Shown: positions 2,933 to 28,259 of the stretch, piece by piece
Layout: every line of letters starts with the position of its first letter
Numbering within the stretch: the stretch's first letter is position 1
Program-made: the position numbers and the translations under genes
Notes under the pieces: generated by a model
What the model saw: the letters and a program-made list of their open reading frames with translations, nothing else
What the model was told of the DNA's origin: nothing
Database searches by the model: none
NCBI GenBank assembly: GCA_017552965.1
Contig: JAFZNQ010000027.1
Coordinates: forward strand, 1 to 48,846
Direction: 5' to 3'
Source of the DNA: Abditibacteriota bacterium
GTDB lineage: Bacteria > Armatimonadota > UBA5829
DNA: 48,846 bases

Positions 2933-4375
2933 TCAGCAGCTTCTGTGATACATGGCGGTGATGTCCCGGAGAAAGTCCCTCTGCCGGTCTGTCACCTGCT
3001 CCCAGTCAAAGCGCCAGCCCCAGCAACCCTCCGGCTGTCCGGGCACGTTCATGCGGGCGGAGCCGTCCAGCTCCAGCAGGTCCTGCATGGGATATACCGC
3101 CGTTTCCGCCACGCTCATGGCCGCAGCGGTCATGAGCTGTCGGGATATGGCCCGGCCGTCTATGGACAGATAGCGGCGCACTCTGTCTCTGGTCTCTTCG
3201 TCCAGCTCCTGCCACCAGCCCAGAGTGGTGTTGTTGTCGTGGGTGCCCGTATAGACCACCTGATTTTGCCGGTGGTTGTGGGGCAGATACAGATTGTCCG
3301 AGCCGTCAAAGGCAAATTGGAGTATGCACATGCCCGGAAAGCCGCATGCGTCCCGGAGAGCCCGCACCCGGTCGTCGATGATGCCCAGGTCCTCGGCTAT
3401 GATGCATTTTGCCTTGCTTTTGGGCAGGGCTTTGTCAAAGAACTCCTTGCCCGGGCCCGGGAGCCAGCGCCCTTTTGCCGCCGTGTGTCGTTTGTTGGGC
3501 TTGATGTGCCAGGCCCGGGAAAAGGCCCGGAAATGGTCTATGCGCACTATGTCCACCGATTCAAACAGCATGGCAAAGCGCCTTTTCCACCAGCGGAAGC
3601 CGTCCTTTCTCATGGCGTCCCAGTCATACATGGGGTTGCCCCAATACTGGCCCGTGGCGCTGAAGTAGTCCGGGGGCACGCCGGACACGAAGGCGGGGTC
3701 CCGGCGCTCATCCAGCAGGAACTGATCTCCGTTCATCCATACGCTTTCGGATTCGTAGTCCAGAAAGATGGGCAGATCCCCCACGATCTTTATCCCCTTG
3801 CCGTTGGCGTAGGCCTTGAGGGCCTGCCACTCCCGGTAAAAGAAAAACTGCAGGACCGCGTGTTTTGAGTTCGCGATGACGTCCCTTTTCACCGGCTCCC
3901 AGTCCTTCCAGCCGGAGCCCCGGGTCTCCTTCAGATGCCGGAATACCATATAGGGGATGAGCCAGCTTTTGTGCTTTTCCACGTACCGGTCATATTCCAC
4001 CGAATATCCCCGGGCGGCAAAGCGTTCCGCCGCCTTTGAGAGCAGCTCTGTCTTCCATGGGGCCACCGAGGCGAAGTCTATCCTGCCGGAGCCGGCTGCC
4101 GGGGCGCCTGCGAGCTCCTCTTCTGTCACCAGACCTTCCTCAGCCAGAGCCTTGGGGCTGATGAGCAGGGGATTGGACGCAAAGGCGGAAAGCCCCTGAT
4201 AGGGGGAGGCGGAGCCGCCCACCGGGGACAGGGGCAGTATCTGCCATAGGCTCTGTCCCGTGTCTGCCAGAAGATCGACAAAACGGAAGGCGTCTTCGCC
4301 CAGGTCTCCCATTCCGTATTTCCCGGGCAGGCTGGTGATGTGGCACAGTATGCCGCTTTCTCTTTTGCCGTTCAT
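2933..4375 (-). CDS. malQ: 4-alpha-glucanotransferase (amylomaltase, GH77)
   Basis: MalQ transfers alpha-1,4-glucan segments between maltodextrins in the cytoplasm. The 480-residue protein has the GH77 hallmarks: an N-terminal GILCHITSLPGKYGMGDLG segment, the acceptor region DLPIFLDYESESVWMNGDQF, the nucleophile region IVRIDHFRAF, the acid/base region IIAEDLG, and VYTGTHDNNTTLGWW. There is no signal peptide. The ATG lies one base past the stop of the preceding GHL6-type gene, with GGAGGA inside that gene's end, so the two are probably translationally coupled. Length is normal for the short bacterial form. Its place beside GH32 suggests joint use of plant storage glycans. Confidence 0.95.
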   Translation of the reverse strand: MNGKRESGILCHITSLPGKYGMGDLGEDAFRFVDLLADTGQSLWQILPLSPVGGSASPYQGLSAFASNPLLISPKALAEEGLVTEEELAGAPAAGSGRIDFASVAPWKTELLSKAAERFAARGYSVEYDRYVEKHKSWLIPYMVFRHLKETRGSGWKDWEPVKRDVIANSKHAVLQFFFYREWQALKAYANGKGIKIVGDLPIFLDYESESVWMNGDQFLLDERRDPAFVSGVPPDYFSATGQYWGNPMYDWDAMRKDGFRWWKRRFAMLFESVDIVRIDHFRAFSRAWHIKPNKRHTAAKGRWLPGPGKEFFDKALPKSKAKCIIAEDLGIIDDRVRALRDACGFPGMCILQFAFDGSDNLYLPHNHRQNQVVYTGTHDNNTTLGWWQELDEETRDRVRRYLSIDGRAISRQLMTAAAMSVAETAVYPMQDLLELDGSARMNVPGQPEGCWGWRFDWEQVTDRQRDFLRDITAMYHRSC

Positions 4376-4376
4376 A

Positions 4377-6386
4377 TCATTCCTCCGTGGTGATCTCGAT
4401 CATGTCGTGGCAGAGAAAGGCGTCCGACACGAACTGCAGCATCCCGTCCGAGTATTCAAAGGGAATGTCATCTCCTCCGGGCACCCGGCGGACCGACAGG
4501 GGCCTTGAGGGGAGCCTCAGGACCACCGGCGTGTTGTACAGGGGAGTCAGGTCCTCTATGATCTCCACCTTGTGAGAGGGTCTCACGTAGCCCTCCGGCG
4601 ACAGCTCCTTTTCCGCTCCCCGGGTGACTATGTCGGCGCTCAGCAGATGGAGCACCAGACGGCCGGGCTGCCGGGTGAGGGTGGCCCGGGCAGTGGAGGG
4701 CAGGCCCACGGTGAGGGTCTTGTCCGGCAGCATGTATTCGATGCCCTTTACGGCCAGCTCCTTGTACACGGTGGCTCCCAGAGAGCCGTATATCTCAAAT
4801 ATGGGGTGGGCGTACCAGAGGACGTTCCCCGCCTTGTTGAGCACTGCTCCGGGATAGGGGGACGCCTTGCCGGCGGGAGCGTGCTGATGGCTGCAGAAGT
4901 GCTCCCAGGTGCGGTTGAACTCGGGATAGGTCACTGCGCAAAGCCCCCGGCCGTCGGTGACCCGGGCCTGCCTGCTCTTCATATACATGACTATGGGCGT
5001 ATCCACGTAGTCCGGCTGCAGGAAGCCTTCGCCCGTCAGGTAGTCCGGCTGATAAGGGCTCACGCCCGCGTATTCGCAGCCCGTGTCCAGAGCAAAGCCC
5101 TTCTTCTCCGGGTCCAGTCCGGAGTCGCCGGACAGTATGAGCCTGCCGCCTCCCGCCAGGTAGTCGTTGAGCCTGACGCGGAGCTCCTCGTCTATGAGTA
5201 TGTCGTCTGCCAGTATCAGGAGCTTGTAGGGCTCAAAGGGAATGCTGCGGTTGATGAGATCAAAGAGATAGTGGCCCTCCAGCAGGATCCTGCCGGTGCC
5301 GTTGTCCGCCTCTCTCGCTCCCGTCTCGGCTTCCCGGGACAGCACCCCTATGTCGGCTATCTGCTCCGCGCCGTCGCACCAGGGCTCCTTTTGTTCCACC
5401 TCTCTGTAGGCGCTGCCTATGAGCCTGTAGGTGGCCGGGTCCAGCCTGCCGGAGGGGGCCAGCTGGTCGCCCACCGAGCACTTGGAGCCGAAGGCCAGCA
5501 TCTGCATACATTCGTAGCGCAGGGCGTTGGGGTGCTTGAAGCCGCCGAATTCGCCCCAGGTGGTGTGGAATTTGCCGGTCATGCCCAGAAAATCCAGGTC
5601 CAGCTTGCCCGCAAACTTGGCTGACAGGGGGAAATGATCGTAGCCCCAGCCTCCGGTGGGCAGGCTTTCCAGCTCCAGGTGCGAAAAGTATTTCAGGACT
5701 TCCGTGTCGTTTTTGGCCACGTGGCCCGAGTTGTGGAACACCCTCATGCGGGGGGTCACGCTGCGGGCAGCCTCGGTGGAGCGGCGGTAATACTCTTCCA
5801 GAGCGTGGGCGGCGCACTGCCGTCTGCTCTCCGGCAGGGCGGGGTCCAGCCCCCGGTCACGCATCCATTTGATGCAGGAGGGACACATGCACTCACCCTG
5901 GTTGATGATGTCCAGAAAGATGCCGTCGCAATCGGGATAGAGCCGGGCTACCTCCTCGATCTGTCTGATGAGATAGTCCAGATAGGGACTGTGGAAGCAC
6001 AGCTTCAGGAATCCGGGAGCCAGGGCCCACTGGGTGTAGGTCCTGCCGTCGGGCGTCGGCCGGGCTTCCCGCCATTCGGGATGCCGGTCCGAGATCCAGG
6101 TGTCCACCCCGGCGGAAATGTAGATGGGAGCGTTGATGTCCGCAGCCTTACAGGCCTCGTATTGCTCCCTCAGGAGATCCCGGGTGAGATGGGGGTGGGG
6201 CACTCCGGTCCGGGTGGGATAGTAGCTGAGGCCGTGATGGCACTTGGCGAAAATGGTGATGGAGTTGACCCGGGCCTGCCGCAGGGTGTCGACCCACTCC
6301 GCGGGGTCAAAGCCGGCGCCTATGTCCTCTATGTCGATGTTGGTGTGAAAGTCCAGATGGACCTGTCTGAAACGCAGTTTTTCCAA
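4377..6386 (-). CDS. Putative GHL6-type glycoside hydrolase with beta-galactosidase-like trimerisation domain
   Basis: A 669-residue cytoplasmic protein without signal peptide. Residues 1 to about 330 look like the GHL6 hypothetical glycosidase barrel (HTNIDIEDIG, then a segment around ITIFAKCHHGLSYYPT). Residues about 345-500 resemble the flavodoxin-like trimerisation domain of GH42 beta-galactosidases (ILADDILIDEELRVRLNDYL and GGGRLILSGDSG). The last 100 residues look like a small beta-domain. The start is a TTG at 6386 with GAGAGGAA upstream. It follows ybaK by ten bases and touches malQ. Related proteins are annotated as possible alpha-L-fucosidase or galactosidase-like enzymes, but I know of no settled substrate. 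Confidence 0.75.
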   Translation of the reverse strand: MEKLRFRQVHLDFHTNIDIEDIGAGFDPAEWVDTLRQARVNSITIFAKCHHGLSYYPTRTGVPHPHLTRDLLREQYEACKAADINAPIYISAGVDTWISDRHPEWREARPTPDGRTYTQWALAPGFLKLCFHSPYLDYLIRQIEEVARLYPDCDGIFLDIINQGECMCPSCIKWMRDRGLDPALPESRRQCAAHALEEYYRRSTEAARSVTPRMRVFHNSGHVAKNDTEVLKYFSHLELESLPTGGWGYDHFPLSAKFAGKLDLDFLGMTGKFHTTWGEFGGFKHPNALRYECMQMLAFGSKCSVGDQLAPSGRLDPATYRLIGSAYREVEQKEPWCDGAEQIADIGVLSREAETGAREADNGTGRILLEGHYLFDLINRSIPFEPYKLLILADDILIDEELRVRLNDYLAGGGRLILSGDSGLDPEKKGFALDTGCEYAGVSPYQPDYLTGEGFLQPDYVDTPIVMYMKSRQARVTDGRGLCAVTYPEFNRTWEHFCSHQHAPAGKASPYPGAVLNKAGNVLWYAHPIFEIYGSLGATVYKELAVKGIEYMLPDKTLTVGLPSTARATLTRQPGRLVLHLLSADIVTRGAEKELSPEGYVRPSHKVEIIEDLTPLYNTPVVLRLPSRPLSVRRVPGGDDIPFEYSDGMLQFVSDAFLCHDMIEITTEE

Positions 6387-6990: not shown

Positions 6991-9123
6991 ATGACAGTTA
7001 CCGAAGAACTGCGCCGGGAGTTCGAAGCCCCCGTCCGCGGAGATAAGCTGACCTACATATATCTGGCCAGAGGCTTTGCCGAGCCTGCAGACACCGTGAG
7101 CCGCAAAAGGGCCAACGGCTGCCGGGCTCTGTTTTCTCTGCCGGAGCCCTATATCTACAAAAACGACCTGATCTGCGGGTGCCTCCGCAGCATCTGGGGA
7201 GAGGCGGACCCCGCCGAGGCGGAGGCTGCCGGAGAGGCCCTCAGACAGCTGGGCGGCCGCAGCTTCGGCACCAACGCAGACCACTTTGCTCCCGACTACA
7301 GGACCCTGGTCGCCATAGGCCTCCCGGGGATGCTGGAGCGGCTTGAGGCTTCGGTGAAGGAGCACGCAGGGACTCCCGAAGGAGAATATGCCCGGGACAT
7401 GCAGATAGCCTTTGAAGGCTTTGTGGAGATGGTCCGGAACTATGCCGCCAAGGCGGAGAGCCTGGTGGGAGTAGAGGGCTACGATCCGGACAGGCTGGGC
7501 TTTATAGCCTCCAACCTCCGCGCCCTGCTTTCCGGCGCTCCCGACACCTTTGCCCGGGGGCTCCAGCTGGTGTGGCTGTGCCACCTGGCCTTTTTGTATG
7601 AAAACCGCTACGCCATGGCGCTGGGCCGCATAGACCAGTATCTGTGGGAGCTCTACGACGCCGACATCAGGGCCGGCAGGCTCACGGAGGACAGGGCGCA
7701 GGAGCTGCTGGAAAACGTGTTCATGAAGATCTACGAGCTCCACGCCTTTGTCGGCGGCGACGACGTGGTGAACATAGCCGTAGGCGGCCGGGACAGACAG
7801 GGCAGGGAGTCTGTGAATCCCCTGTCTCTCTGTGTGGTGCGGGCCGTGGGAGCCTGCAACGTGCCCGGTCCCAATCTGTCTCTCAGATATACCCCCGGTA
7901 TGAGCAAGGAATTCGTGGACGAGTGTCTGCAGGTCATAGGCACCGGTCTGGGCTATCCCGCCCTGATGAACGACGACGTGAATATAGCCGCCCTCAGCCG
8001 CTACGGCTACGAGCCGGAGGACGTGTACGACTACTGTATGGTGGGCTGCATCGAAAACTTCATCACGGGCTGCCAGCCCCCCTGGAGCGACAACCGCTTT
8101 GATACTCCCAAGTATATAGAATATCTTTTCAACAGGGGCAAGGACCCTCTGGGTATCGCCGACGGCCCGGACACGGGAGACATAGACGATATCCGGTCCA
8201 TGCAGGACTTTATGGACCGCTACGAGGCCCAGCTGCGGGCGGGCGTCAGGAGCTACGTGGACAGATTCTACTCCTACAACGTGATCAAAGACCCGGAGAA
8301 CTACACCCAGCCCTTCCTGTCCTGCCTGTGCAGGGACTGCATCAAGAGGGGTAAGGACATCAATATGGGCGGCGCCAAATACCCCTCGGTCCACGGGGCC
8401 GGGCTCATGGGCGTGGGCACCGTGGCCGACTCGCTGGCTGCCGTGGAAAAGGTGGTCTTTGAGGACCGGGAGACGGATCTTGCCACGCTGAAGCAGGCTC
8501 TGCTTAAAAACTTTGAGGGCTATGAAGCCCTGAGGCAAAAGCTGCTGGCCGCTCCCAAATACGGCAACAACGACGAATTCGTGGACAAATACGCCGTATG
8601 GTTCGTCAAATTCCTGGCGGGGGAATTCGCCAAATACCGCACCTATGACGGAGGCGGCATCTATATAGCCATGGCCTCCAATATCAGCAACATCTATTCC
8701 GGCGCTGCCACAGGCGCCACACCCGACGGCAGGAAGGCGCGGGCTCCCTTGTCCGACGCCTCGTCGCCCACCTACGGCAGGGACGTGAACGGGCCTACCG
8801 CCACGGTGCTGAGCCTGACCAAGCCCGACTATTCCGTGTGCGCCTGCGGCTCCGTGGTGAATCAGAAGTTTTCCCCGGACATGTTCAAGGGGGAAAACAG
8901 AGACAAGCTCCAGAGCCTTGTCAGGGCCTATTTTGCCCGGGGAGGCCAGGAGATGCAGATCAACGCTACCTCTCCCGAGGTCCTGAGGGACGCCATGCAG
9001 CATCCGGAGAATTATGGCAATATGGTGGTGAGGGTGTCCGGCTTTTCGGCAGTCTACGTGAAGCTGGCGCCGGAGGTCCAGGAGGATATACTCCACAGGA
9101 CCCAGCACGAATCCGCAGAATAA
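6991..9123 (+). CDS. Glycyl-radical enzyme, pyruvate formate-lyase-like family, substrate unknown
   Basis: A 710-residue cytoplasmic radical enzyme. The glycyl-radical loop is RVSGFSAVY with Gly684 as the expected radical site. The active-site loop is MVGCIENF with Cys353 as thiyl residue and Glu355 two residues on. The C-x-E arrangement is that of GRE dehydratases and C-N/C-S lyases; true pyruvate formate-lyases have adjacent cysteines instead. The protein is shorter than most characterised members (about 760-850). AAGGAGA precedes the ATG. The next gene, 13 bases on, is a zinc alcohol dehydrogenase that could reduce or oxidise the product. No radical-SAM activating enzyme is encoded in the window, so activation must come from elsewhere. 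Confidence 0.9.
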   Translation: MTVTEELRREFEAPVRGDKLTYIYLARGFAEPADTVSRKRANGCRALFSLPEPYIYKNDLICGCLRSIWGEADPAEAEAAGEALRQLGGRSFGTNADHFAPDYRTLVAIGLPGMLERLEASVKEHAGTPEGEYARDMQIAFEGFVEMVRNYAAKAESLVGVEGYDPDRLGFIASNLRALLSGAPDTFARGLQLVWLCHLAFLYENRYAMALGRIDQYLWELYDADIRAGRLTEDRAQELLENVFMKIYELHAFVGGDDVVNIAVGGRDRQGRESVNPLSLCVVRAVGACNVPGPNLSLRYTPGMSKEFVDECLQVIGTGLGYPALMNDDVNIAALSRYGYEPEDVYDYCMVGCIENFITGCQPPWSDNRFDTPKYIEYLFNRGKDPLGIADGPDTGDIDDIRSMQDFMDRYEAQLRAGVRSYVDRFYSYNVIKDPENYTQPFLSCLCRDCIKRGKDINMGGAKYPSVHGAGLMGVGTVADSLAAVEKVVFEDRETDLATLKQALLKNFEGYEALRQKLLAAPKYGNNDEFVDKYAVWFVKFLAGEFAKYRTYDGGGIYIAMASNISNIYSGAATGATPDGRKARAPLSDASSPTYGRDVNGPTATVLSLTKPDYSVCACGSVVNQKFSPDMFKGENRDKLQSLVRAYFARGGQEMQINATSPEVLRDAMQHPENYGNMVVRVSGFSAVYVKLAPEVQEDILHRTQHESAE

Positions 9124-9136
9124 AAAGGAGACAGAT

Positions 9137-10225
9137 ATGAAGACAGCCAAAGCGGCGGTGTTTATGGGGGCGGGCAAGCCCTTTGAGGTGAGAAGCTTTG
9201 ACGTGACCGAGCCCCCGGCGGGCTACGGCATGAGCACACTTGTGGCCAGCGGCATATGCGGCACCGACATACATATGACCCACGGCACCCTCATAGTGGG
9301 GTCGCCCTCCATCATCGGACATGAGTTTATAGGCAGGCTGGAAGCCTGCGACCCGGCGGAGGCGGCCCGATACGGACTGAAGCCGGGGGACTATGTGGTG
9401 GCGGATATAGCCGTGCCCTGCGGCGAATGCCTGCTGTGCAGGACCGGCGACGACGCCAACTGCGTCAATATGCAGGTGACCAACGGAGGCAGCATAGACG
9501 AAGCCCCCTATCTCTACGGAGGCTACAGTCAGGTGAACTACACCCCTCTGAAAAACCTCATCCGGGTGCCCGAGGGAGTGGACCCCCGGGCCGCTGCCGT
9601 GTTTGCCTGCCCGGGACCAACGGTGGTCCACGCCTGCAGACTGGCGGAGCAGGCCGGCGTCCGTTTTGAGGACATCGGCAGCGCCGTGGTGCAGGGAGCC
9701 GGGCCCGTGGGCATGTTTGCTATCATGTATCTGAAAGCAAAGGGCGTAAAAAAGGTCATAGCCGTGATGCGGTCGGACAAGCCCTTCCGCACCCGGGCTG
9801 CAGAGAGAGCCGGAGCGGACGAAGTGATGTTTATGAGCGAGGGCGGCGTCTGCGACAAGCTGGCCGCCGAAAACGGCGGACTGGGGCCGGACCTGTGCTT
9901 TGAGGCCTCCGGGGCTCCCGAAGCCATACCCGTGGGTATCGGCGTCCTGCGCAACAGAGGCGTGTATCTGGTGCCCGGCCAGTATTCCAACAGCGGGGGA
10001 GTGGAGATCCAGCCCCAGCTCATCACATTCAAGGCTCTCAGGATATTAGGCTCCTCCCAGTATTCCGTCATTGACGTCAGGGACTACCTGGAATTCCTGC
10101 GCAGCCACAGCGCGCTGGAAAGCGTCATCCTGTCCATGGGCAGCTTTTACCCCGTGGAGGACGTGAACGCTGCCATAGAGGCAGCCGACAAAGGGGAGAA
10201 CGTCAAGACCCTGCTGGTGCCTTAA
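9137..10225 (+). CDS. Zinc-dependent medium-chain alcohol dehydrogenase
   Basis: A 362-residue MDR-superfamily dehydrogenase that should interconvert an alcohol and a carbonyl with NAD(P). Catalytic zinc ligands are visible as Cys41 (GICGTD) and His62-Glu63 (GHEF). The structural zinc lobe is complete, with Cys95, Cys98, Cys101 and Cys109 in CGECLLCRTGDDANC. The nucleotide fold carries GAGPVG. AAGGAGA precedes the ATG, and the gene is clearly co-transcribed with the glycyl-radical enzyme, ending at the terminator at 10238. The pairing suggests it handles an aldehyde or alcohol from the radical reaction, but the substrate cannot be told. Confidence 0.92.
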   Translation: MKTAKAAVFMGAGKPFEVRSFDVTEPPAGYGMSTLVASGICGTDIHMTHGTLIVGSPSIIGHEFIGRLEACDPAEAARYGLKPGDYVVADIAVPCGECLLCRTGDDANCVNMQVTNGGSIDEAPYLYGGYSQVNYTPLKNLIRVPEGVDPRAAAVFACPGPTVVHACRLAEQAGVRFEDIGSAVVQGAGPVGMFAIMYLKAKGVKKVIAVMRSDKPFRTRAAERAGADEVMFMSEGGVCDKLAAENGGLGPDLCFEASGAPEAIPVGIGVLRNRGVYLVPGQYSNSGGVEIQPQLITFKALRILGSSQYSVIDVRDYLEFLRSHSALESVILSMGSFYPVEDVNAAIEAADKGENVKTLLVP

Positions 10226-11464: not shown

Positions 11465-12892
11465 ATGAAACACGAAGAATTGGTACAAGCCCTGATCCCC
11501 GCTCTGGGAGGCAGGGACAACATACTTCAGGTCATGAACTGCATGACCCGGCTCAGGGTCACCCTCGCAGACCCCGCCAAGGCCGATCTGGAAGCGGTGA
11601 AGCAGATAGAAGGCGTGTTGGGCGTGGTGGCCGACAGAGAGGAACGGCCGGAGATAGTGCTGGGGCCCGGCGTGGTGCGCCAATGCGCGGACATCTGCCA
11701 CAGCATGGGGCTGGGCGCTCCGGAAAAGACCTGGCAGGAAAACAAGGCTGAGATCAGGAGCCGCCAGAAGCAAAGCCCCCTCCGCGCGGGCCTGAAGACC
11801 TTTGGCGACATATTTATCCCCCTGATCCCCGGCGTGATCGCGGCGGGCCTTTGCGGCGGTCTGGCGACCCTGCTGGAACAGGCCTATCCCGGTCACAAGG
11901 ACATCCGGTGGTTTGAGACCCTGATCCAGCTCATGAAGATGATCAACGCCGCCTTTATGACCTACCTCACCGCCTGGGCCGGCTACAGGGCCGCCGAAAA
12001 ATTCGGCGGGACTCCCATACTGGGCGGCATGCTGGGCATGATCACAGGTCTGGACGGCATAAACACGGTGTCTGAGATATGGGGCCTCTTCAACGCCTCC
12101 GAGCCTCTCGCGTCCGTGCTGCGGGTCGGCAGAGGCGGCGTCCTGTCGGCTGTATTCGGAGTGTGGCTCCTGGTGGTTTGCGAGAAATGGCTCAGGAAAA
12201 GGATGCCCTCGGCTCTGGACGTGATCATTACGCCTCTTGTCCTCTTGCTGGGCTTTTGTATCCCGTATATATTCGTGGTCATGCCCCTGATGGGCTATAT
12301 CTCCAACGGTATCTGCTGGGTGGTGGAGCACGTCTGCATGTCCGAGAGCGTAGCCATCAGGGCTGTGGCAGGGTATGTGTCCGCGGCTCTCTTTTTGCCT
12401 ATGGTGTCCGTGGGTATGCATCACGGATTGGTGGCTCTCTACACGGTGCAGCTCAACACTCTGGGCTACGTGACCCTCTATCCCGCCCTGGCCATGGCCG
12501 GCGCCGGTCAGGTGGGCGCGTCCATTGCCCTGTGGATAAAGGCCCGCAAGGTGAAAAACGCCCGTCTGTCCCGGGTCATTGCCGGCGCTTTGCCCGCTGG
12601 CTTTCTGGGAGTAGGGGAGCCTCTCATTTACGGCGTCACTCTCCCTCTGGGCACTCCCTTCATCACCGCCGGACTGGGAGCCGGCTTCGGAGGCGCCTTT
12701 ATCATGGCCATGGAGGTGGCAGCCACTACCTGGGGACCTTCGGGACTTCTGGGCCTCTTTGTCATGACCGCCGGGCCCAATCCCGCCGCCAAGAGCCTCC
12801 TGTGCTATCTGACGGGACTGATAATAAGCTACATCATGGGCTTTATCATCACCACTATCGTCATCAAAAAAGAGGAGCTGACGGAAGAATAA
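11465..12892 (+). CDS. PTS sugar transporter EIIBC, glucose/sucrose/MurNAc type
   Basis: A 475-residue permease that should import and phosphorylate a sugar. Residues 1-85 form the EIIB domain with the phosphorylated Cys26 in NCMTRLRV. From about residue 115 the EIIC domain follows, with about ten membrane segments and the substrate loop GVGEPLIYGVTLPLGTP. Length and layout resemble MurP, the MurNAc permease, and sucrose/trehalose EIIBC. There is no EIIA domain, and no murQ-like etherase or glycosidase is adjacent, so the sugar is unknown. I chose the ATG at 11465, behind AAAAAGGA, over upstream in-frame codons because the EIIB domain starts there. A bidirectional terminator follows at once. 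Confidence 0.9.
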   Translation: MKHEELVQALIPALGGRDNILQVMNCMTRLRVTLADPAKADLEAVKQIEGVLGVVADREERPEIVLGPGVVRQCADICHSMGLGAPEKTWQENKAEIRSRQKQSPLRAGLKTFGDIFIPLIPGVIAAGLCGGLATLLEQAYPGHKDIRWFETLIQLMKMINAAFMTYLTAWAGYRAAEKFGGTPILGGMLGMITGLDGINTVSEIWGLFNASEPLASVLRVGRGGVLSAVFGVWLLVVCEKWLRKRMPSALDVIITPLVLLLGFCIPYIFVVMPLMGYISNGICWVVEHVCMSESVAIRAVAGYVSAALFLPMVSVGMHHGLVALYTVQLNTLGYVTLYPALAMAGAGQVGASIALWIKARKVKNARLSRVIAGALPAGFLGVGEPLIYGVTLPLGTPFITAGLGAGFGGAFIMAMEVAATTWGPSGLLGLFVMTAGPNPAAKSLLCYLTGLIISYIMGFIITTIVIKKEELTEE

Positions 12893-12923
12893 AAAAAAGC
12901 CGCCCTGCGGGGCGGCCTTTTTT
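12891..12923. terminator. Bidirectional terminator between convergent genes
   Basis: GCCGCCC (12899-12905), loop TGCG, GGGCGGC (12910-12916), with eight A on the left and six T on the right. It ends both the EIIBC gene and the minus-strand operon that finishes at 12929. Confidence 0.92.
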
Positions 12924-12928
12924 ATGCC

Positions 12929-13474
12929 TTATTTGGTCTTCACGACTATCACGGGGCGCAGCTCCGGATGGGCCGTGGCCACGCCAAAGCCCTCCTTGTT
13001 GATCCTGCCCTCGGGCTCCACAAAGGCGGCGTGGATCTCATCGACCCCGCTGTCCTTGAGCCACCACCACACCGGGCGTCTGTCCTTGTCGAAGAGGTTG
13101 AAGCAGGTCAGGTCCTTCTTCAGATACTTTTCCGCTTCCTTTACGGTCAGCAGACGCACCTTGAAGCCCTCCTTTTTCACTATCTTCTGCCTCTCCTGCT
13201 TGGTGAAGCATTTTTGCAGGAAGTCGCCGTTGAGATACTTGCACACGGAAGACTCCTCCCAGCTGGTCTTTTGGCTGATCTCGTTGTACTGCTTTCTGCC
13301 CAGCGAGTCCCTGCACAGCAGGAGGGCCGTGCCGTTGGTCTCTTCCAGCACTATCCACCTGATGGCCTTGGTCTGTCCCTTGTCGTCCTTATATTTGCCC
13401 ATGATTATCTGCTTGGCGCAAAGTGCCGGCAGGGCCATAAGGGCTATCACCAATACTGCAATAAGCTTTTTCAT
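12929..13474 (-). CDS. Secreted DUF6273-domain protein
   Basis: A 181-residue exported protein. Residues 1-20 are a signal peptide ending ALPALCA. The body has the order expected for DUF6273: an IRWIVLEE strand, LLLCRDSLG, the pair TSWEESSVCKYLNGDFLQKCF, a VRLLTVKEAEKYL segment, a WWWLKDSG stretch, and RPVIVVK at the end. DUF6273 resembles the C-type-lectin/sulfatase-modifying-factor fold and is common on gut bacterial surfaces; its function is not known to me. The ATG at 13474 overlaps the preceding gene's stop as ATGA, with CAGGAG upstream, so it is coupled to that glycosidase-like gene. It is the last gene of a five-gene operon. Confidence 0.75.
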   Translation of the reverse strand: MKKLIAVLVIALMALPALCAKQIIMGKYKDDKGQTKAIRWIVLEETNGTALLLCRDSLGRKQYNEISQKTSWEESSVCKYLNGDFLQKCFTKQERQKIVKKEGFKVRLLTVKEAEKYLKKDLTCFNLFDKDRRPVWWWLKDSGVDEIHAAFVEPEGRINKEGFGVATAHPELRPVIVVKTK

Positions 13475-14793
13475 TTTACTATACTCCTGTATTCGCGTAT
13501 TTGCTGCGACGCCAGGGCTCTCCATGCGTCGGATTGGTCCTTGTTCATAAATTCTCCCCCATAGGGGTGGTCGATATCGGGCTCGGCGGCTATGTGGGTG
13601 TCCACCATCTCGTTCCAGCTGTAAAAGCCGAAGCCGTCGCCTATCCTGGCGGCCTGAGCCCCTATGCCATAATAGTCCGTCTTTTTCTCCCGGATCATGA
13701 AGTCGGCCATAGCCCTGTAGGTGCGGTAGGTGATGACCAGATGCTGACCGGTGTCCTTTTGCCACTTGATAAGGGCGTCCTCCGTCTTTTTGCTCAGATA
13801 TCCGGTGCACCTGAGCACGTTGATCTCCGCGTGGCGGGTGGTCTCCGGCGTGGCGGCTCCGTAGGCTTCGTAGCCCCGGCCGTGGGGATGCTGAGAATAC
13901 ATCTCGTAGGGCAGCTCGGTGGCTATCAGCAGGTCGGGATATTTGTTTTTGAGCCGGCGTTTGATCTCCGCCATGGCGTCGTTCTGCACTCTGGCCCGAA
14001 AGTCTATCTGATCCTTGATGGCGCGGGTATGCCGGGCCTTGCCTGCCAGATAGGCCTCGAAGTCAAAGAGCTTCATGTCCATGAGCCTGATCTCGTCGGC
14101 GGAGCCGAATCGGGTGCCCCAGGCCTTGTTGATGCCGGCTATGTCGGTGTATTTTGCCAGCAAGTGCTTGCGGAACAACTGGCAGGATACCTCGTCGTCG
14201 GAGCCCTGCCATTCCAGCTCCACGGTGATGGCTATGACCGGCTTCAGCTTGCCCTCGTCCCACACTCTGAGCAGGGCCCCGTCATTGAGATATCTCTCCA
14301 GATACTCGTCGCAATAGCGGTAGCCTGCCTCGATGGTGCCGGCGTCATAGGGGATGATGCGGTCGGGCTTCCCTTCGCTGTCAAGACCCAGCTTCAGCTC
14401 GGCGCCGTAGGTCTCTTTGATGCGTTCCATGCGGTCCGGGGAGCCCAGGTCTGCCCATTCCTTGAGGCTCAGCCAGGGCAGGATCTCCAGCCCGGCTTCC
14501 CTGGCCAGCCTGTGGCCCCTGTCCAGCCAGAACCATTCCAGGGACATAGCCTGGATCCATTCGCTGTCTATGAACAGAGTATTGCAGCCCATGGCTTTTA
14601 TCTGCTTCAGATCCTTCAGAACGAGGGCGTCGTCGGTGCGCCAGGGCTCCCACCAGTGGAAGAAGTAATAAAAGCCGCACAGAGGGGAGTTGTCCCGGGT
14701 CCTCAGGGTGGTGTCCCTGCCGGCGGCCTGAGCTGCGCCCACTGCGGCAGCCAGCAGAAGCAATGCTGCCAATATACCGGTCAAGTGTCTCAT
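13471..14793 (-). CDS. Secreted putative TIM-barrel glycosidase, paralogue 1
   Basis: A 440-residue exported protein (signal peptide about residues 1-23). It starts with the module RDTTLRTRDNSPLCGFYYFF and continues with what looks like a (beta/alpha)8 barrel. Acidic candidates are the glutamates in ITVELEW and in YSWNEMVDTHIAAEPD; the latter resembles the WNE-EP motif of GH99/GH71-like and WbsX-like barrels. I cannot assign a family or substrate. It is clearly homologous over its full length to the next upstream gene (14790-16106), so the pair arose by tandem duplication. Its ATG overlaps that gene's stop as ATGA, and the next gene overlaps its own stop the same way. Confidence 0.75.
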   Translation of the reverse strand: MRHLTGILAALLLLAAAVGAAQAAGRDTTLRTRDNSPLCGFYYFFHWWEPWRTDDALVLKDLKQIKAMGCNTLFIDSEWIQAMSLEWFWLDRGHRLAREAGLEILPWLSLKEWADLGSPDRMERIKETYGAELKLGLDSEGKPDRIIPYDAGTIEAGYRYCDEYLERYLNDGALLRVWDEGKLKPVIAITVELEWQGSDDEVSCQLFRKHLLAKYTDIAGINKAWGTRFGSADEIRLMDMKLFDFEAYLAGKARHTRAIKDQIDFRARVQNDAMAEIKRRLKNKYPDLLIATELPYEMYSQHPHGRGYEAYGAATPETTRHAEINVLRCTGYLSKKTEDALIKWQKDTGQHLVITYRTYRAMADFMIREKKTDYYGIGAQAARIGDGFGFYSWNEMVDTHIAAEPDIDHPYGGEFMNKDQSDAWRALASQQIREYRSIVK

Positions 14794-16106
14794 TTTGCCT
14801 TCTCCAGATACTCCTTTATCTGCTGGGAGGCCAGACCCTTCCAGGCCCGGGACTCCTCGGGGGTGAATATCTCAAATTTGCCGATGGGATTCGACAGGTC
14901 CGGCTCGGCTGCTATATGGGTGTCCACCATTTCGTTCCAGCTGTAGAAGCCAAAGCCGTCTCCTATCCTGGCCGCCTGGTCGCCTATGCGGAAATAGTCA
15001 GTGTCCGAGCCCTTAAGCACCGCCTGTTCCTTGCCCTTGTAGGTGCGGTAGGTGATCACCAGATGCTGCCCCGTGTCCTTTTGCCACTTGATCAGGGCGT
15101 CCTCGGTCTTTTTGGAAAGCAGGCCGGTGCACCTCAGCACCGTGATATCGGCGTGGAGGGTGGTCTCGGGAGTGGCGGCGCCGTTTATCCTGTAGTAGAG
15201 CTCTGCCGGGTGGTCCGTAAACATCTCGTGGGGCAGCTCGGTGGCTATCAGCAGGTCGGGATATCTGATCTTCAGCCGCCGCTTGATCTCCGCCATGGCG
15301 TCGTTCTGCACCTTGGCCCTGAAGGCTATCTGGTCCTCTGTGGCCCGGTCGAGCTTTGCCTTGCCGGCGCTGCAGTCCTCTATATTAAAGAGCTTCGGGT
15401 CCATGAGCTCCACCTCGTCTATGCTGCCGAGCCGGGTGCCCCAGGCCTTGTTGAGCCTGTCGGTGTAGGAGTATATGTCCTTCAGATACTTCCTGAAGCG
15501 TTTGTTGGTCTCTTCGTCGTTGGAGCCGGACCACTCCAGCTCCACGGTGATGGCCACCACGGGCTTCAGCTTGCTGCCGTCCCTGACGCGCAGGATGGCT
15601 CCGTCCGAGAGGTATCTGTCCAGATAATCCACGCAGTAGCGATAGCCCGCCTCTATGGTGGCCTCGTCATAGGGGATGATGCGGTTGGGCTTGCCGTCGT
15701 AGTCCACGCCGGTCCTCAGGTCCACGCCGTACATCTTTTTGACCAGGGCGACGCGGTTCTCGCCTCCCAGATCGATCCATTCCTTCAGGCTCAGCCAGGG
15801 GAGTATCTCCAGTCCCGCCTCCTTGGCCAGCCTGTGGCCTCTGTCCAGCCAGAACCAGTCCCGGTCGATCATCTGGGACCATTCGCTGTCCAGAAAGATG
15901 ACGTTGCAGCCCATGGCCCTGATCTCCCGCAGGTCGCCGAGGGCCCGGGCGTCGTCCGAGCGCCAGGGCTCCCACCAGTGGGTGAAGAAATAAAAGCCGC
16001 ACAGGGGCGAGTTGTCCCGGGTCCTCAGGGTGGTGGGCCTGCCGGCTGCCAGAAGGGCGCCGGCGGACAGCGTGAGGATCAGGAGCATAGCAAAAACATA
16101 TCTCAT
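14790..16106 (-). CDS. Secreted putative TIM-barrel glycosidase, paralogue 2
   Basis: A 438-residue exported protein (signal peptide about residues 1-20, ending LLAAG). It shares with the following gene the opening TTLRTRDNSPLCGFYFF, HWWEPWR, DSEW, LEILPWLSLKEW, ITVELEW, LPHEMF, LSKKTEDALIKWQKDTGQ and YSWNEMVDTHIAAEPD. Most catalytic-looking residues are conserved between the two, which suggests that both are active. They differ most in the middle and at the C-terminus, so they may act on different linkages. AAGGAGA precedes the ATG. It lies 32 bases after a GH172 gene, which is the best clue that both act on the same glycan. Confidence 0.75.
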   Translation of the reverse strand: MRYVFAMLLILTLSAGALLAAGRPTTLRTRDNSPLCGFYFFTHWWEPWRSDDARALGDLREIRAMGCNVIFLDSEWSQMIDRDWFWLDRGHRLAKEAGLEILPWLSLKEWIDLGGENRVALVKKMYGVDLRTGVDYDGKPNRIIPYDEATIEAGYRYCVDYLDRYLSDGAILRVRDGSKLKPVVAITVELEWSGSNDEETNKRFRKYLKDIYSYTDRLNKAWGTRLGSIDEVELMDPKLFNIEDCSAGKAKLDRATEDQIAFRAKVQNDAMAEIKRRLKIRYPDLLIATELPHEMFTDHPAELYYRINGAATPETTLHADITVLRCTGLLSKKTEDALIKWQKDTGQHLVITYRTYKGKEQAVLKGSDTDYFRIGDQAARIGDGFGFYSWNEMVDTHIAAEPDLSNPIGKFEIFTPEESRAWKGLASQQIKEYLEKAK

Positions 16107-16138
16107 ATATTTTCTCCTTGTGTGTCAGATGTCCTGTG

Positions 16139-17203
16139 TTACGGTGTGTCCAGATAATAGTAGGCCGTGGTGATATAGTCGTTGGCCAGAGGGATGTATT
16201 CCTTGTTCCAGCCCAGGTCAAACATGGTGACGCGCAGGTCCTTTTTGAATTTCACCGGGTCTTTCACGTGCCATCTGTAGGCCATGAACCAGTCCTCGGC
16301 CCTGCCATCGCCGGTCTCGCTGTGGTTGATGCAGTAAAGGCCTGAGTAGAGGCCGGACACAGTGGTATATACCACCCCGTCCACCTCCCAGGCGTTGGAG
16401 CCTCCGAAGTAGTCCTCCAGTCCGGTGAAGTTGACCGTGGGCCTGTCCTTGTCCCCGTCTATGTAAAAGCGCACCTCTCCCTCGCACCAGCAGCCGCAGC
16501 CCCTGGCTTTTTCGGCGTCGCTCCGCAGACACAGGGCCGTGCCCGCATATTTGCCCGCGCCTTTTACATCCAGAACGGTAACGGGCACCCCGGGCTTTAC
16601 CGGGATGTTTTCCCTGTATTCCGTGTGGAACCGGCCGGCGTTCTTCGGCAGCTTCTTCAGGGTCCCGTTTATGGTATAATAGCTGACCCGGGCCCGGGAA
16701 GAGGTGTTCTCCAGGGTCATGCGGAAGCTCTTGCCGAAGGGCATGGCCCAGTAGCAGTTCATGCCCAGTCTGGGAGAGATGAACACCTGGGACGAGTCCA
16801 GCACCGGATATTTTTTGTCGTAGTGGTTCACGTTGGTGGGCCGGGCATGGGCAAAAAAGGCGGGCAGGGGGCACTCCACGGCGGGAGTCTTGGCTCCGTC
16901 CCAGTATATCCTCAGTATGAATTCCGGCGTCACGTCGCCGCCGAACCATATGCTGTCTATGGTCCCCGTTCCCTCATAGTCGGCGAGCGCAGCCGTTTCT
17001 CCGGGGCCGACGGTGATGGACGGAGAAGGCTTCAGACCTCCCCTGAGTTCGGATACGGCTCCTCCGCCCCGGGCGCCTGTGGGGTTCTCCGGAGAGATGG
17101 CAAAGGAGACTTCGTCCTCCAGCTCGTAGAGCTCTGCGGCGAAGATGGGCGCCGCAGCGGCAAGAATGGCAACAGACAGTAAGATGAGCATCATAGTTTT
17201 CAT
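16139..17203 (-). CDS. Secreted DUF2961/GH172 glycosidase, copy 2
   Basis: A 354-residue exported protein (signal peptide about residues 1-22). It matches DUF2961, now GH172, whose characterised members act on difructose dianhydride or on D-arabinofuranosides. Family signatures visible are SIWFGGD, LRIYWDGAKTPAVECPL, MNCYWAMPFGKSF, CEGEVRFYIDGD and TGLEDYFGGSNAW; the glutamates of the last two are the expected catalytic pair. It is a full-length paralogue of the gene at 17249-18289. The ribosome binding site is weak (AAGG). Position: second gene of the five-gene operon read from 18360 to 12929. The substrate is an inference from family; the operon has no transporter or regulator. Confidence 0.9.
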   Translation of the reverse strand: MKTMMLILLSVAILAAAAPIFAAELYELEDEVSFAISPENPTGARGGGAVSELRGGLKPSPSITVGPGETAALADYEGTGTIDSIWFGGDVTPEFILRIYWDGAKTPAVECPLPAFFAHARPTNVNHYDKKYPVLDSSQVFISPRLGMNCYWAMPFGKSFRMTLENTSSRARVSYYTINGTLKKLPKNAGRFHTEYRENIPVKPGVPVTVLDVKGAGKYAGTALCLRSDAEKARGCGCWCEGEVRFYIDGDKDRPTVNFTGLEDYFGGSNAWEVDGVVYTTVSGLYSGLYCINHSETGDGRAEDWFMAYRWHVKDPVKFKKDLRVTMFDLGWNKEYIPLANDYITTAYYYLDTP

Positions 17204-17248
17204 TGAGTTAACCTTGCCCCGGCCGGTCCGCCGGGGACGCCGGTCCCG

Positions 17249-18289
17249 TCAGGGCGTGTCCAGATAATAATATGCGGTGGCGCGTACGTCATCGGCCCGG
17301 GTCTCAAAGCCGGTGGTGTCCCGGTTCCAGCCGAGACTGAAAAGGGTGGCCTTCAGATCCCTGGCAAAATAGATGGGGTCCGCATCGTGCCATCTGTAGC
17401 CCATGAACAGGTCTCCCTTGTAGCCGTGGGTGCCGGGCGCCCGGTTGATGCAGTAGAGGCCGGCGTGAAAGCCGGATACCGTGTGGTAATCTCCGCCCAC
17501 CGTCCAGGCAAAGGAGCCGCAGAGATAGTCCTCCAGGCCCGTAAAGTTGATGGTGGGCCGCTCCCCGTCCCCGTCGATATAAAAACGCGGCTCGCCTTCG
17601 CACCAGCAGCCGGGGCTCTCGGTCCTGATGCACAGAGCCGTGCCCACGTATTTGCCCTTCCCCTTTATGTCGGCAAAGACCACCGGCTTTCCCTTTTCCG
17701 CGGCGCCTTGCCGGTATTGGGTATGAAAATAACCTGCGCTCCCGGGGATATGCCTCAGAGTCCCGTTGATGGTGTAAAACGTGGTCAGGGGACGCTCCGA
17801 CTCGTTGGTCAGAGTAATGCGGAAACCCTTCCTGAAGGGCATTTTCCAGTAGCAGTTCATGCCGTGATTTGGGCTGATAAGTATCATGGAAGAATTGAGC
17901 ACCGGGAACCTGCCGTCAAAATGGTTTACGTCCACGGGAGAGGCGTGGGCAAAAAAGGCGGGCAGGGGACAGTAAACTGCCGGCTCTTTGGCTCCGTCCC
18001 AGTATATGCGCAGGGTGAAGTCGGGAGAGACTTCGCCGCCTATCCAGATGCTGTTTACGGTCCCTTCGCCACTGAAGTCCGCTATAACGGCGGTCTCCCG
18101 GGGCTGAACGGTGACTGCGGGGGAGGGCTTCAGGCCACCCTTGGTTTCCGGCAGGGCCCCGCCTCCCTTTGCCCCCGATGGGTTTTCCGCAGACAGGGTG
18201 AAGGAGGAGGCTTCCTCCAGGGTAAACATTTCTTGCGCGCAGATGCGGCAGGGCAAAAGAGCCGCCAGCAAAAGGATCAACAGGTACAC
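17249..18289 (-). CDS. Secreted DUF2961/GH172 glycosidase, copy 1
   Basis: A 346-residue exported protein when started at the GTG at 18289, which has AAGGAGAGAG just upstream; that start also gives a clean signal peptide (about residues 1-19, ending CAQ after CRI). An upstream in-frame ATG would add 13 residues without a ribosome binding site and is rejected. GH172 signatures: SIWIGGE, LRIYWDGAKEPAVYCPL, MNCYWKMPFRKGF, CEGEPRFYIDGD and TGLEDYLCGSFAW, with both catalytic glutamates. It is the promoter-proximal gene of the five-gene operon and a tandem paralogue of the next gene. It ends in the same YYYLDTP tail as its paralogue. Confidence 0.9.
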   Translation of the reverse strand: MYLLILLLAALLPCRICAQEMFTLEEASSFTLSAENPSGAKGGGALPETKGGLKPSPAVTVQPRETAVIADFSGEGTVNSIWIGGEVSPDFTLRIYWDGAKEPAVYCPLPAFFAHASPVDVNHFDGRFPVLNSSMILISPNHGMNCYWKMPFRKGFRITLTNESERPLTTFYTINGTLRHIPGSAGYFHTQYRQGAAEKGKPVVFADIKGKGKYVGTALCIRTESPGCWCEGEPRFYIDGDGERPTINFTGLEDYLCGSFAWTVGGDYHTVSGFHAGLYCINRAPGTHGYKGDLFMGYRWHDADPIYFARDLKATLFSLGWNRDTTGFETRADDVRATAYYYLDTP

Positions 18290-18331
18290 GTCTCTCTCCT
18301 TAAATATGATCTTTGAGATATAATACAAGTC

Positions 18332-18360
18332 ATTATAACATATGACCCGGTCTTTGTCAA
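18332..18360 (-). promoter_or_regulatory. Promoter of the GH172/glycosidase operon
   Basis: On the minus strand a perfect TTGACA (18355-18360), 17-base spacer, TATAAT (18332-18337) preceded by TGT. It is close to the ideal consensus, so expression should be strong unless repressed; I see no clear operator. It diverges from the promoter at 18386-18414. Confidence 0.88.
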
Positions 18361-18385
18361 ACGCTTTTGCCCGGCGGCGTCTCTA

Positions 18386-18414
18386 TTGCCCGCGGAGCGT
18401 TTCTGTGATATAAT
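18386..18414 (+). promoter_or_regulatory. Promoter of the ricT-metG-ispE-dxs transcript
   Basis: TTGCCC (18386-18391), 17-base spacer, TATAAT (18409-18414) preceded by TGA. Confidence 0.8.
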
Positions 18415-18461
18415 ATAAATGAACAAATTAATCGAGATAAATACCCTAAAGGATATAACAT

Positions 18462-19703
18462 ATGCCAACAGTAGTAGGGGTCGCCTTCAAGAAGGCCGGC
18501 AAGGTGTACAACTTCGGCACCAACGGGCTGGAGCTGCGCGAGGGCATGAACGTCATCGCTCACACCAAGCGCGGCTGGAAGATGGGCATGGTAGTGACCA
18601 ACCCCAAAGAGATCACGGAAGAAGAGATAATAGGCGATTTTTGCGAGGTGGACCGCATCGCTACCCGGGCGGATATGGAAAAGGTGAAGAGACACCCGGC
18701 CATAGCGGCGGAGCATTTCAAGGTCTGCGAGCAAAAGATCGCCGAGCACGGGCTGCCCATGCGCCTTTTGAGCGCCGAGCTGTCCTTTGACGAGTCCATG
18801 ATCACCTTTTTCTTTGCCGCCGAAAACCGGGTGGACTTCAGAGAGCTGGTCCGGGACGTGGCCGGCGCCATCCACCTCAAGGTGCAGCTGATGCAGATAG
18901 GCGTCAGAGACGAGGCCAAGCTCATAGGGGGCTACGGCTCCTGCGGCCGGCAGCTGTGCTGCAGCCTGTTTATGAGCGACCTGTCCGTGTCGGTGAGCAT
19001 GAAGATGGCCAAGGACCAGTCGCTGTTCCTCAACCCGGCCAAGTTTTCCGGCTGCTGCGGCAAGCTCATGTGCTGCCTGAAGTTCGAGAACGAGTTTTAC
19101 AGCCAGATGCAGAGCGCTCTTCCCGCCGTGGGAGTGTATCTGAACACGGACAAGGGCGTGTGCAAGGTCAAGGAGTACAACTACATAGCCGGCACCGCCA
19201 TTCTGGTGGGCGAAGAGGGCTCCAGCTTCACGGTGCCTCTTGCCAAGCTCAATATGGAGGGCCTGTGCCGCAAGCACGGCATCCACACGGAGAACTGCGA
19301 CGAGAATTGTCAGACCGTGGACGTGGAAAGGCTCAGGGAGCTGGGAGTCATGACCCTCAAAAAGGACGAGGAAGAGACTCCCTTTACCATACCCTCCTAT
19401 GACGGCAGCACCTCCATCAGCTTTGACTTTCCCGAGGAAGAGCCCGAAAGCGAGGGCAAGGCCTCGAAGAAAAAGCATCGCCGCAGGCAGTCCGCTTCCA
19501 AAAACGGCAACAATCAGAAGATGCCCAAGGGCCCCAAGCCCTTTACCATGGGAGGAGACGACTCTCCCGATCTGGGCATCGTATTCAGGGATCTGAAGGA
19601 CGAAGCGAACCAGGCCAAGAAGAAAAAGAAGCACAGGCCATCAAAGAAGAACAAGCCGGGCGCCCCGGGCAGCCCGGAGCAAAAGGATACTGCAAATGAG
19701 TAA
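18462..19703 (+). CDS. ricT: PSP1-domain protein (RicT/YaaT-like)
   Basis: A 413-residue cytoplasmic protein with an N-terminal PSP1 domain (residues about 1-270). In Bacillus, RicT works with RicA and RicF as an iron-sulfur complex that assists RNase Y. Family features are YGSCGRQLCCS, SGCCGKLMCCLKFE and the later cysteine pair in the HGIHTENCDENC region, which probably take part in cluster binding. The C-terminal 130 residues are a low-complexity acidic then Lys-rich tail, longer than in RicT and probably disordered. AAAGGA lies upstream of the ATG. The stop overlaps the start of metG by eight bases; yaaT next to metG-type genes is a common arrangement. Confidence 0.9.
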   Translation: MPTVVGVAFKKAGKVYNFGTNGLELREGMNVIAHTKRGWKMGMVVTNPKEITEEEIIGDFCEVDRIATRADMEKVKRHPAIAAEHFKVCEQKIAEHGLPMRLLSAELSFDESMITFFFAAENRVDFRELVRDVAGAIHLKVQLMQIGVRDEAKLIGGYGSCGRQLCCSLFMSDLSVSVSMKMAKDQSLFLNPAKFSGCCGKLMCCLKFENEFYSQMQSALPAVGVYLNTDKGVCKVKEYNYIAGTAILVGEEGSSFTVPLAKLNMEGLCRKHGIHTENCDENCQTVDVERLRELGVMTLKKDEEETPFTIPSYDGSTSISFDFPEEEPESEGKASKKKHRRRQSASKNGNNQKMPKGPKPFTMGGDDSPDLGIVFRDLKDEANQAKKKKKHRPSKKNKPGAPGSPEQKDTANE

Positions 19704-26613: not shown

Positions 26614-26642
26614 TTGTTTTTCACGGCGGATTGTGATATAAT
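26614..26642 (+). promoter_or_regulatory. Promoter of the orphan 116-residue protein gene
   Basis: TTGTTT (26614-26619), 17-base spacer, TATAAT (26637-26642) preceded by TGA. The start codon follows after GGAGGA at about 26680. Confidence 0.75.
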
Positions 26643-26691
26643 AATATAGCGTAACACTAACAGGTAACTACACTCGTCGGAGGATACGATA

Positions 26692-27042
26692 ATGGCAACA
26701 GGCAAAATATCTAAAAATGCGCGCCGTTCCGGACTTATGTCCCAGGGTGAGCACAAAGTTGTTATAGAGAACGACACCACCAGAGGAAAGGTCTTTGTAG
26801 AGATCCGCTCCAAGCTGGAAGAGGGCAACGTGCCCTTCCAGAATCTCTCTTCGAGCCATCCTATTTCCATATCCAAGGGCTCCTTTGAGCAGGCTGCCGA
26901 GATAGTCAAGGCTGCGCTGGGCGACCGCTACAGCGTGGAAAAGGAAGAGGCCGGCTGTCTCGTGATGGTGGAAAACACCCCCAAGACTCCTGCCCGCATG
27001 GTAGTCAGGGAAAGCCCCTTCAGCTGGTATAAGGCCAACTGA
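26692..27042 (+). CDS. Conserved-looking 116-residue protein of unknown function
   Basis: I do not recognise this protein. The first 15 residues are basic (ATGKISKNARRSG), which could bind nucleic acid. The rest alternates strands and one helix (VFVEIRSKLEEG, then SFEQAAEIVKAALGDRY, then CLVMVENT), so a small alpha/beta fold is likely. There is no signal peptide or membrane segment. Good promoter and ribosome binding site plus its own terminator indicate a well-expressed single gene. Codon use is like its neighbours, which argues for a real gene. Confidence 0.75.
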   Translation: MATGKISKNARRSGLMSQGEHKVVIENDTTRGKVFVEIRSKLEEGNVPFQNLSSSHPISISKGSFEQAAEIVKAALGDRYSVEKEEAGCLVMVENTPKTPARMVVRESPFSWYKAN

Positions 27043-27051
27043 TCAGGAGAA

Positions 27052-27093
27052 ATGCAAGCACCGCGCAGTCGGTGCTTTTTTTTACCGTCATGA
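27052..27093 (+). CDS. Possible 13-codon leader ORF overlapping the terminator and dxr start
   Basis: ATG at 27052 opens a 13-codon frame (MQAPRSRCFFLPS) that runs through the terminator stem and T-run and stops at TGA 27091-27093, overlapping the dxr ATG (27090) as ATGA. AGGAGA lies at 27045-27050, but its spacing of one base is too short for good initiation. If translated, it would both couple to dxr and interfere with the hairpin. Confidence 0.3.
   Translation: MQAPRSRCFFLPS
27056..27083 (+). terminator. Terminator immediately before dxr
   Basis: AAGCACCG (27056-27063), loop CGCAGT, CGGTGCTT (27070-27077), then T to 27083. The dxr ATG is only seven bases beyond the T-run, so dxr either needs read-through or an unseen promoter upstream. 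See the separate note on the dxr leader. Confidence 0.85.
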
Positions 27094-28241: not shown

Positions 28242-28259
28242 GAGCCCGCTCTCTTTTTT
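28230..28259. terminator. Terminator between dxr and the convergent URO-D gene
   Basis: Nine-pair stem (28230-28238 with 28245-28253, including one G-T pair) around a six-base loop that carries the dxr stop, followed by a T-run to 28259. Confidence 0.85.

Follow-up and report, generated by a model that had tools for sequence, protein, structure and literature searches.

The 48,846-nucleotide contig JAFZNQ010000027.1 (hereafter 'the window'; contig C27 of assembly GCA_017552965.1) belongs to the 2.78-Mb, 97% complete genome of a rumen bacterium of the Abditibacteriota. On its minus strand we identified a five-gene operon that codes for two DUF2961 proteins of glycoside hydrolase family 172 (GH172a and GH172b), two paralogous (beta/alpha)8-barrel proteins (barrels A and B) and a small DUF6273 protein, all with plausible signal peptides. 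The operon is most likely a genus-restricted set of exported glycosidases that has been retargeted to another glycan, and it probably attacks a sugar linkage so far unidentified. On balance, we lean towards a reading in which a single promoter serves the genes of four exported glycosidases and of a small accessory protein, with the GH172 pair retargeted, the barrels as a divergent GH42/GH14-like branch, and one glycan common to all of them.

Both GH172 proteins match DUF2961 at positions 4-234 of the 235 positions of the profile (cut-off 27 bits). Among solved proteins, the exo-alpha-D-arabinofuranosidase ExoMA1 (8ic8) is closest to both, with 164 bits for GH172a and 173 bits for GH172b. The catalytic residues of alphaFFase1 are E270 and E291, with D292 beside them (PMC8605356), and those of DgGH172c are E233 and E254 (PMC10115798). 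All four operon GH172 proteins have equivalents of E270, E291 and D292, namely the two of the window and the two of a sister species represented by the yak-rumen metagenome-assembled genome G009, labelled Abditibacteriota, which is the nearest relative with the operon (its locus L010 and contig C233 match in length and gene coordinates and were taken as one record). In the numbering of GH172b, the retained residues are E241, E263 and D264. The operon proteins resemble ExoMA1, DgGH172a/c and alphaFFase1 (7v1v) in their full-length DUF2961 domain, their catalytic triple and their single-domain size of about 350 residues.

They differ from these enzymes at the -1 subsite. Aligned to the solved enzymes, all four operon proteins carry the replacements Y187G, W267C, G269C and T290L (alphaFFase1 numbering is used for GH172 changes unless that of GH172b is stated); the altered residues of GH172b are G180, C238, C240 and L262. 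Position 299 is probably Ala as well, the least certain of the changes, since the register at 298/299 may shift by two residues. We surveyed these positions in the 29 closest non-operon relatives by similarity, all from the phylum and with the third GH172 protein of the genome among them, and in ExoMA1, alphaFFase1 and BACUNI_00161; the only proteins considered beyond these were two of family f12. None of the four replacements was found in the 29 relatives or the three solved enzymes. Tyr187, Trp267 and Gly269 are kept in all 32 of these proteins, and at the position of T290 two of the 29 relatives have Val or Ala, and none has Leu. Furthermore, the next-closest relatives in the phylum are only ~41% identical to the operon proteins, which form a branch on a stem of 3.07 changes/site within the otherwise compact, canonical GH172 proteins of Armatimonadota. 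In this tree GH172a groups with GH172a and GH172b with GH172b across the two species and, according to this topology, the duplication predates their split. Family GH172 has a double jelly-roll fold and a trimer-based assembly; an AlphaFold model of GH172b, built from four sequences, was all-beta and too poor for a fold search (predicted local distance difference test, pLDDT, 42; predicted template modelling score, pTM, 0.38).

In alphaFFase1, Y187 is contributed by the neighbouring subunit, and together with W267 it lines the -1 subsite and holds the furanose. Because this Tyr and this Trp are replaced, the operon GH172 pair probably no longer takes the classical substrate, or takes a larger one. 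In the studies cited here (PMC8605356, PMC10115798, PMC10509167), characterized GH172 enzymes act on alpha-D-arabinofuranose and alpha-D-fructofuranose. The preliminary description had named D-arabinofuranose and difructose dianhydride linkages as the known targets of GH172 and proposed an exported pathway for an uncommon furanose-containing polymer. The case for these linkages as the substrate of the operon is weakened, as every operon GH172 protein has other residues in place of those that hold such sugars in the -1 subsite. An ordinary degradation set for D-arabinan or alpha-D-fructofuranosides, in which the GH172 proteins would be exo-alpha-D-arabinofuranosidases and the barrels endo- or debranching enzymes, is unlikely in our view. 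It would agree with ExoMA1 being the best solved relative and with the retention of the catalytic residues. The position that separates arabinofuranose specificity (Asn253 in ExoMA1) from fructofuranose specificity (Gly299 in alphaFFase1) also bears on it, as Ala299 could admit the 1-hydroxymethyl group of fructofuranose, like Gly299 in alphaFFase1 (PMC10509167). Nevertheless, the equivalents of Y187 and W267 are lost; the Y187A variant of alphaFFase1 keeps 0.7% of its activity on p-nitrophenyl arabinofuranoside (pNP-Araf), and the W267A variant could not be produced (PMC8605356).

The genetic context also argues against such a set. The third GH172 protein of the genome, encoded on another contig (C54), is canonical at the -1 subsite, and only one unassigned gene lies between its gene and one that codes for the full set of three L-fucose isomerase domains. 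Both belong to a five-gene block (L112 5282-11160, on C54 of the window genome G000) that comprises canonical GH172, FucI-like isomerase, PIG-L-like and pectate-lyase-like genes and is conserved in G009. Fucose isomerase is the most abundant carbohydrate enzyme in Dysgonomonas gadei grown on D-arabinan (PMC10115798). This block is thus a better candidate than the operon for the degradation of D-arabinofuranosides, if the organism degrades such sugars. No match to the endo-D-arabinanase family GH183 (DUF4185) was found in the genome, a search with no positive control, since the control genomes likewise yielded none. The operon resembles the D-arabinan loci of D. gadei (PUL42) and Microbacterium arabinogalactanolyticum in that GH172 genes are grouped with other glycosidase genes. 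It differs from them by the lack of a transporter or isomerase gene and of a GH183 match in the genome, and the FucI-like gene found near a GH172 gene is here at the canonical GH172 on a different contig.

That the GH172 proteins have lost hydrolysis altogether and serve as exported binding or scaffold proteins, with the barrels as the sole enzymes, appears rather improbable. The loss of two aromatic residues of the -1 subsite and the very long stem would fit this possibility, but the two catalytic Glu residues and the neighbouring Asp are intact in all four proteins, and selection on the genes is at present purifying. Between the window and G009, protein identities are 79% for GH172a, 80% for GH172b and 86% for barrel A, compared with 66% for the neighbouring dxr product; the second flanking gene stands at 82%. 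The dN/dS ratios calculated by NG86 are 0.14/0.78 = 0.18 for GH172a, 0.12/0.74 = 0.17 for GH172b and 0.10/0.54 = 0.18 for barrel A. Given these ratios and the high identities, the operon genes are kept by purifying selection.

Neither barrel protein reaches the cut-off of any Pfam family, the best being GH42 (17.6 and 20.4 bits for the two barrels, against 21), and no Pfam or NCBIfam model names the family to which they belong. The relatives scanned score between 25.9 and 54 bits with the GH42 profile, with matches centred on strand 4 and the segment that follows it, and all the members scanned remain at 17 bits or less with that of GH14 (cut-off 27). The AlphaFold model of barrel A (pLDDT 82.4, pTM 0.84) shows the eight barrel strands in order. 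Foldseek placed beta-amylases (GH14) and GH42 enzymes at the top, GH14 with the lowest E-values (4e-12), and VIA-align ranked a GH42 protein first (5e9a; Z 26.4 over 354 residues, root mean square deviation 4.1); GH35 is also among the fold matches. A structure prediction and fold search had been proposed as a check in the preliminary description; they yielded a (beta/alpha)8 fold akin to GH42 and GH14. The motif WNEMVDTH of the barrels may resemble GH99/WbsX-type motifs; no such family appears among the fold-search matches listed, which excludes nothing.

Among solved proteins, a profile of 22 family members matches GH42, GH14 and agarases, chiefly in the segment that follows strand 4. The profile-profile alignment with GH42 is full-length and extends over 385 columns with a probability of 94%, its GH42 side being shallow, with two sequences. 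The family shares with GH42 beta-galactosidases (clan GH-A) the (beta/alpha)8 barrel and the segment FRxWLxxKYxxxxxLNxAWGT after strand 4. In contrast, its invariant Glu is shifted from the GH42 acid/base column, no carboxylate takes the place of the GH42 nucleophile, it has invariant residues of its own (E290, E392 and D395), and the barrels of the window score under the Pfam cut-off. The post-strand-4 segment is also shared with GH14 beta-amylases, from which the family differs by an identity of only ~15% and by scores under the Pfam cut-off in every member scanned.

Across the 22 members, the column of the GH42 acid/base is occupied by Glu, Ala, Gly or Asp, mostly by Ala or Gly, and the residue preceding it is not Asn. 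An invariant Glu (E189 in barrel A) is found two residues before this column. As for the strand-7 nucleophile of GH42, the corresponding HLVITYRTY strand of the barrels has no carboxylate, and the Glu of the GH42 MEQ motif faces a gap in the low-depth profile alignment. The invariant carboxylates of the family are D52, D73, E189, D197, E290, E392 and D395. The active site of a (beta/alpha)8 barrel sits at the C-terminal ends of its strands, and 18 of the 35 invariant residues of the family are found there, for about seven expected (p = 7e-6, with strand-end windows set after the columns had been viewed). Since invariant residues gather at the strand ends and the GH42 catalytic positions are not kept, the family is probably enzymatic, with a catalytic arrangement of its own, as judged from the alignment and the model. 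With strand 7 lacking the usual nucleophile, the candidate acids would be E189 of strand 4 together with E392/D395 of strand 8 or E290 of strand 5. In the tree of the family, this genus stands on a stem of 1.19 changes/site; the long stems in both trees thus identify both gene pairs as divergent branches. In three f30 genomes, the family member makes up the C-terminal part, one half, of a protein with two barrels (L050 7638-10088, L052 254-2641 and L053 7136-9670). The N-terminal half of the L050 protein alone scores 29.2 bits with GH42.

In G009, GH172a is followed by GH172b, barrel A and the start of a second barrel, in this order; the contig ends after residue 82 of that second barrel, before any DUF6273 gene. 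The GH172b protein of G009 (L010 4092-6308) carries a BNR_4 domain after its GH172 part (28.6 bits against a cut-off of 27.3); the window genome lacks this domain, also as a separate gene. The partial second barrel of G009 (L059 7693-7938) harbours HWWNPW, with Asn for Glu46, where the other members read have HWWEPW or a near variant. The stretch 237-2883 of G009 matches positions 26627-29274 of the window. The operon follows it directly in G009; in the window, the operon is ~8 kb upstream of this stretch and in the opposite orientation. The upstream edge of the operon is thus a rearrangement breakpoint between the two species (window 18332-18462; L059 2883-3093). An inversion from the PSP1 gene to the gene at 28258-29274 would explain both maps, the G009 contig stopping before the other breakpoint. 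In a third genome of the genus, G008, the operon is missing; this genome has no barrel gene and only canonical GH172, and its PSP1-metG stretch has a different gene upstream. Thus, of the conserved neighbour order that was to be checked in relatives, one other species keeps genes one to three and the beginning of gene four, and the order is not found in the loci read outside the genus. On these comparisons, the operon is restricted to the genus and under selection.

The barrel family was searched for in 291 genomes of the phylum and found in 21 of them, 19 outside the genus; its distribution in Armatimonadota is patchy. The remaining loci are mostly from the same phylum as grouped by the genome collection (records titled Armatimonadetes, Chthonomonadales, etc.), with Kiritimatiellota and Hydrogenedentota in addition. 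We read the neighbourhoods of 21 loci outside the genus, namely those of the 19 phylum genomes together with the loci from Kiritimatiellota and Hydrogenedentota. For four of them the stretch is short (5.5-9.7 kb; L015, L043, L045 and L046), so that absence there is weak evidence; the 17 others extend further on at least one side. The GH172 profile search detected no GH172 gene beside the barrel gene in any of the 17 testable loci, and no neighbour gene is widely shared across families among the stretches read. In two loci only, L040 and L042, both of family f12, a GH172 gene occurs ~8 kb away from the barrel gene. We rejected these as instances of the same arrangement, as the genes are not adjacent and the GH172 proteins are divergent, have two domains and carry the canonical WWGxG motif. 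GH172 is thus not a general partner of the barrels. Of the proposal that they found a new glycosidase family whose partner is GH172, the first part is consistent with the absence of a family model and with the glycosidase fold, and the partnership does not extend beyond the genus. A loose assembly of genes with a common promoter and unrelated substrates, the barrels acting alone as in most other hosts, would fit these neighbourhoods and the frequency of GH172 across the phylum, but it is very unlikely given that the order is the same in two species despite an adjacent rearrangement, that the overlaps are tight and that both gene pairs are on long stems shared by the genus.

In the retargeted operon that we favour, one promoter would drive the four exported glycosidases and the small accessory protein. 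The GH172 pair preserves the double carboxylates of a retaining GH172 enzyme (acid/base E241, nucleophile E263 and neighbouring D264 in GH172b) and would cleave a furanoside or a bulkier sugar other than alpha-D-arabinofuranose and alpha-D-fructofuranose, as the loss of the -1-subsite Tyr and Trp, together with G269C, T290L and the probable A299, would imply. The barrels and the GH172 proteins would attack one glycan in succession, with two related linkages or positions in the chain for each pair, and other genes of the genome would take up the products. A more specific version, somewhat less likely than not, is that the operon represents a two-family, twice-duplicated exported pathway for a linkage with no assigned enzyme, with GH172 enzymes re-tooled at the -1 subsite and barrels whose catalytic acids have moved from the clan GH-A positions.

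Several points weigh against retargeting to one glycan. The pocket change is read from an alignment to the solved enzymes that also allows a two-residue shift near position 298/299, and the long GH172 stem could in part reflect a past period of lowered constraint instead of a newly gained function. At near-invariant positions of the family, barrel B has other residues (S77I and D81S), so that one barrel copy might be less active. We infer catalytic activity, catalytic residues, altered specificity and joint action on one substrate, the last from one operon in two species. If our reading is true, a GH172 branch with intact carboxylates and a rebuilt -1 subsite would widen the range of linkages cleaved by the family, and the barrels, with no Pfam or NCBIfam model and without the catalytic positions of clan GH-A, could found a new CAZy family. 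It would also give the uncultured Abditibacteriota of the rumen a definite, testable function.

The operon structure bears out the preliminary description (Table 1). The five genes are open and in the order given on the minus strand, with a single correction: the open reading frame of GH172a spans 17249-18328, and its likely start is a GTG at 18289, preceded by AGGAG. The promoter described as near-consensus is an exact match, a pattern that occurs twice in the window and not once in 100 shuffles, and the sequence is that of one transcription unit. The ATGA overlaps of the last three genes are real (14793-14790 and 13474-13471). So is the homology within each pair, which is old, with 60% identity for GH172 and 67% for the barrels. 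A hydrophobic N-terminal stretch and a plausible signal-peptidase site were read by eye in all five proteins. As had been noted, no transporter or regulator gene is found inside the operon, and no Rfam match was obtained for RNA elements around it.

Table 1. Features of the operon and its borders in the window
Feature	Position	Strand	Evidence
Sigma-70 promoter, TTGACA-17-TATAAT	18332..18360	-	12/12 consensus positions matched
GH172a (DUF2961), signal peptide, CWCEGE and GLEDY variant motifs	17249..18289	-	Pfam 197.3 bits
GH172b (DUF2961), signal peptide, CWCEGE and GLEDY variant motifs	16139..17203	-	Pfam 205.3 bits
Barrel A, (beta/alpha)8 glycosidase-like, signal peptide; invariant E189, E290, E392, D395	14790..16106	-	AlphaFold model, fold matches, invariant columns
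Barrel B, 67% identical to its paralogue barrel A, signal peptide, overlaps the barrel A gene by ATGA	13471..14793	-	
Small exported protein, partial DUF6273 domain, overlaps the barrel B gene by ATGA	12929..13474	-	Pfam 42.5 bits
Intrinsic terminator	12892..12923	-	14-pair stem and T run

The terminator separates the operon from a convergent gene for a phosphotransferase system (PTS) EIIBC protein that ends at 12892. The best family of this protein is the N-acetylmuramic acid transporter, with a score far below the family cut-off. On the other side, a divergent PSP1 gene begins at 18462, upstream of the operon promoter. The last gene product of the operon matches DUF6273 over positions 1-60 of the 172 of the profile only (cut-off 23.5 bits). 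As the genome holds 21 DUF6273 stretches, this domain is generic here, and we rejected it as a specific functional clue. In addition to these stretches, the genome holds 31 GH42-type matches.

Elsewhere in the window, a gene for a glycyl radical enzyme whose nearest subfamily is PFL2-3, with scores under the cut-off of every NCBIfam model listed, is followed by a zinc alcohol dehydrogenase gene (6991-10225, plus strand). Lastly, a gene for a GHL6/alpha-L-fucosidase-like protein (4377-6386, minus strand) adjoins that of a GH77 4-alpha-glucanotransferase (2933-4375).

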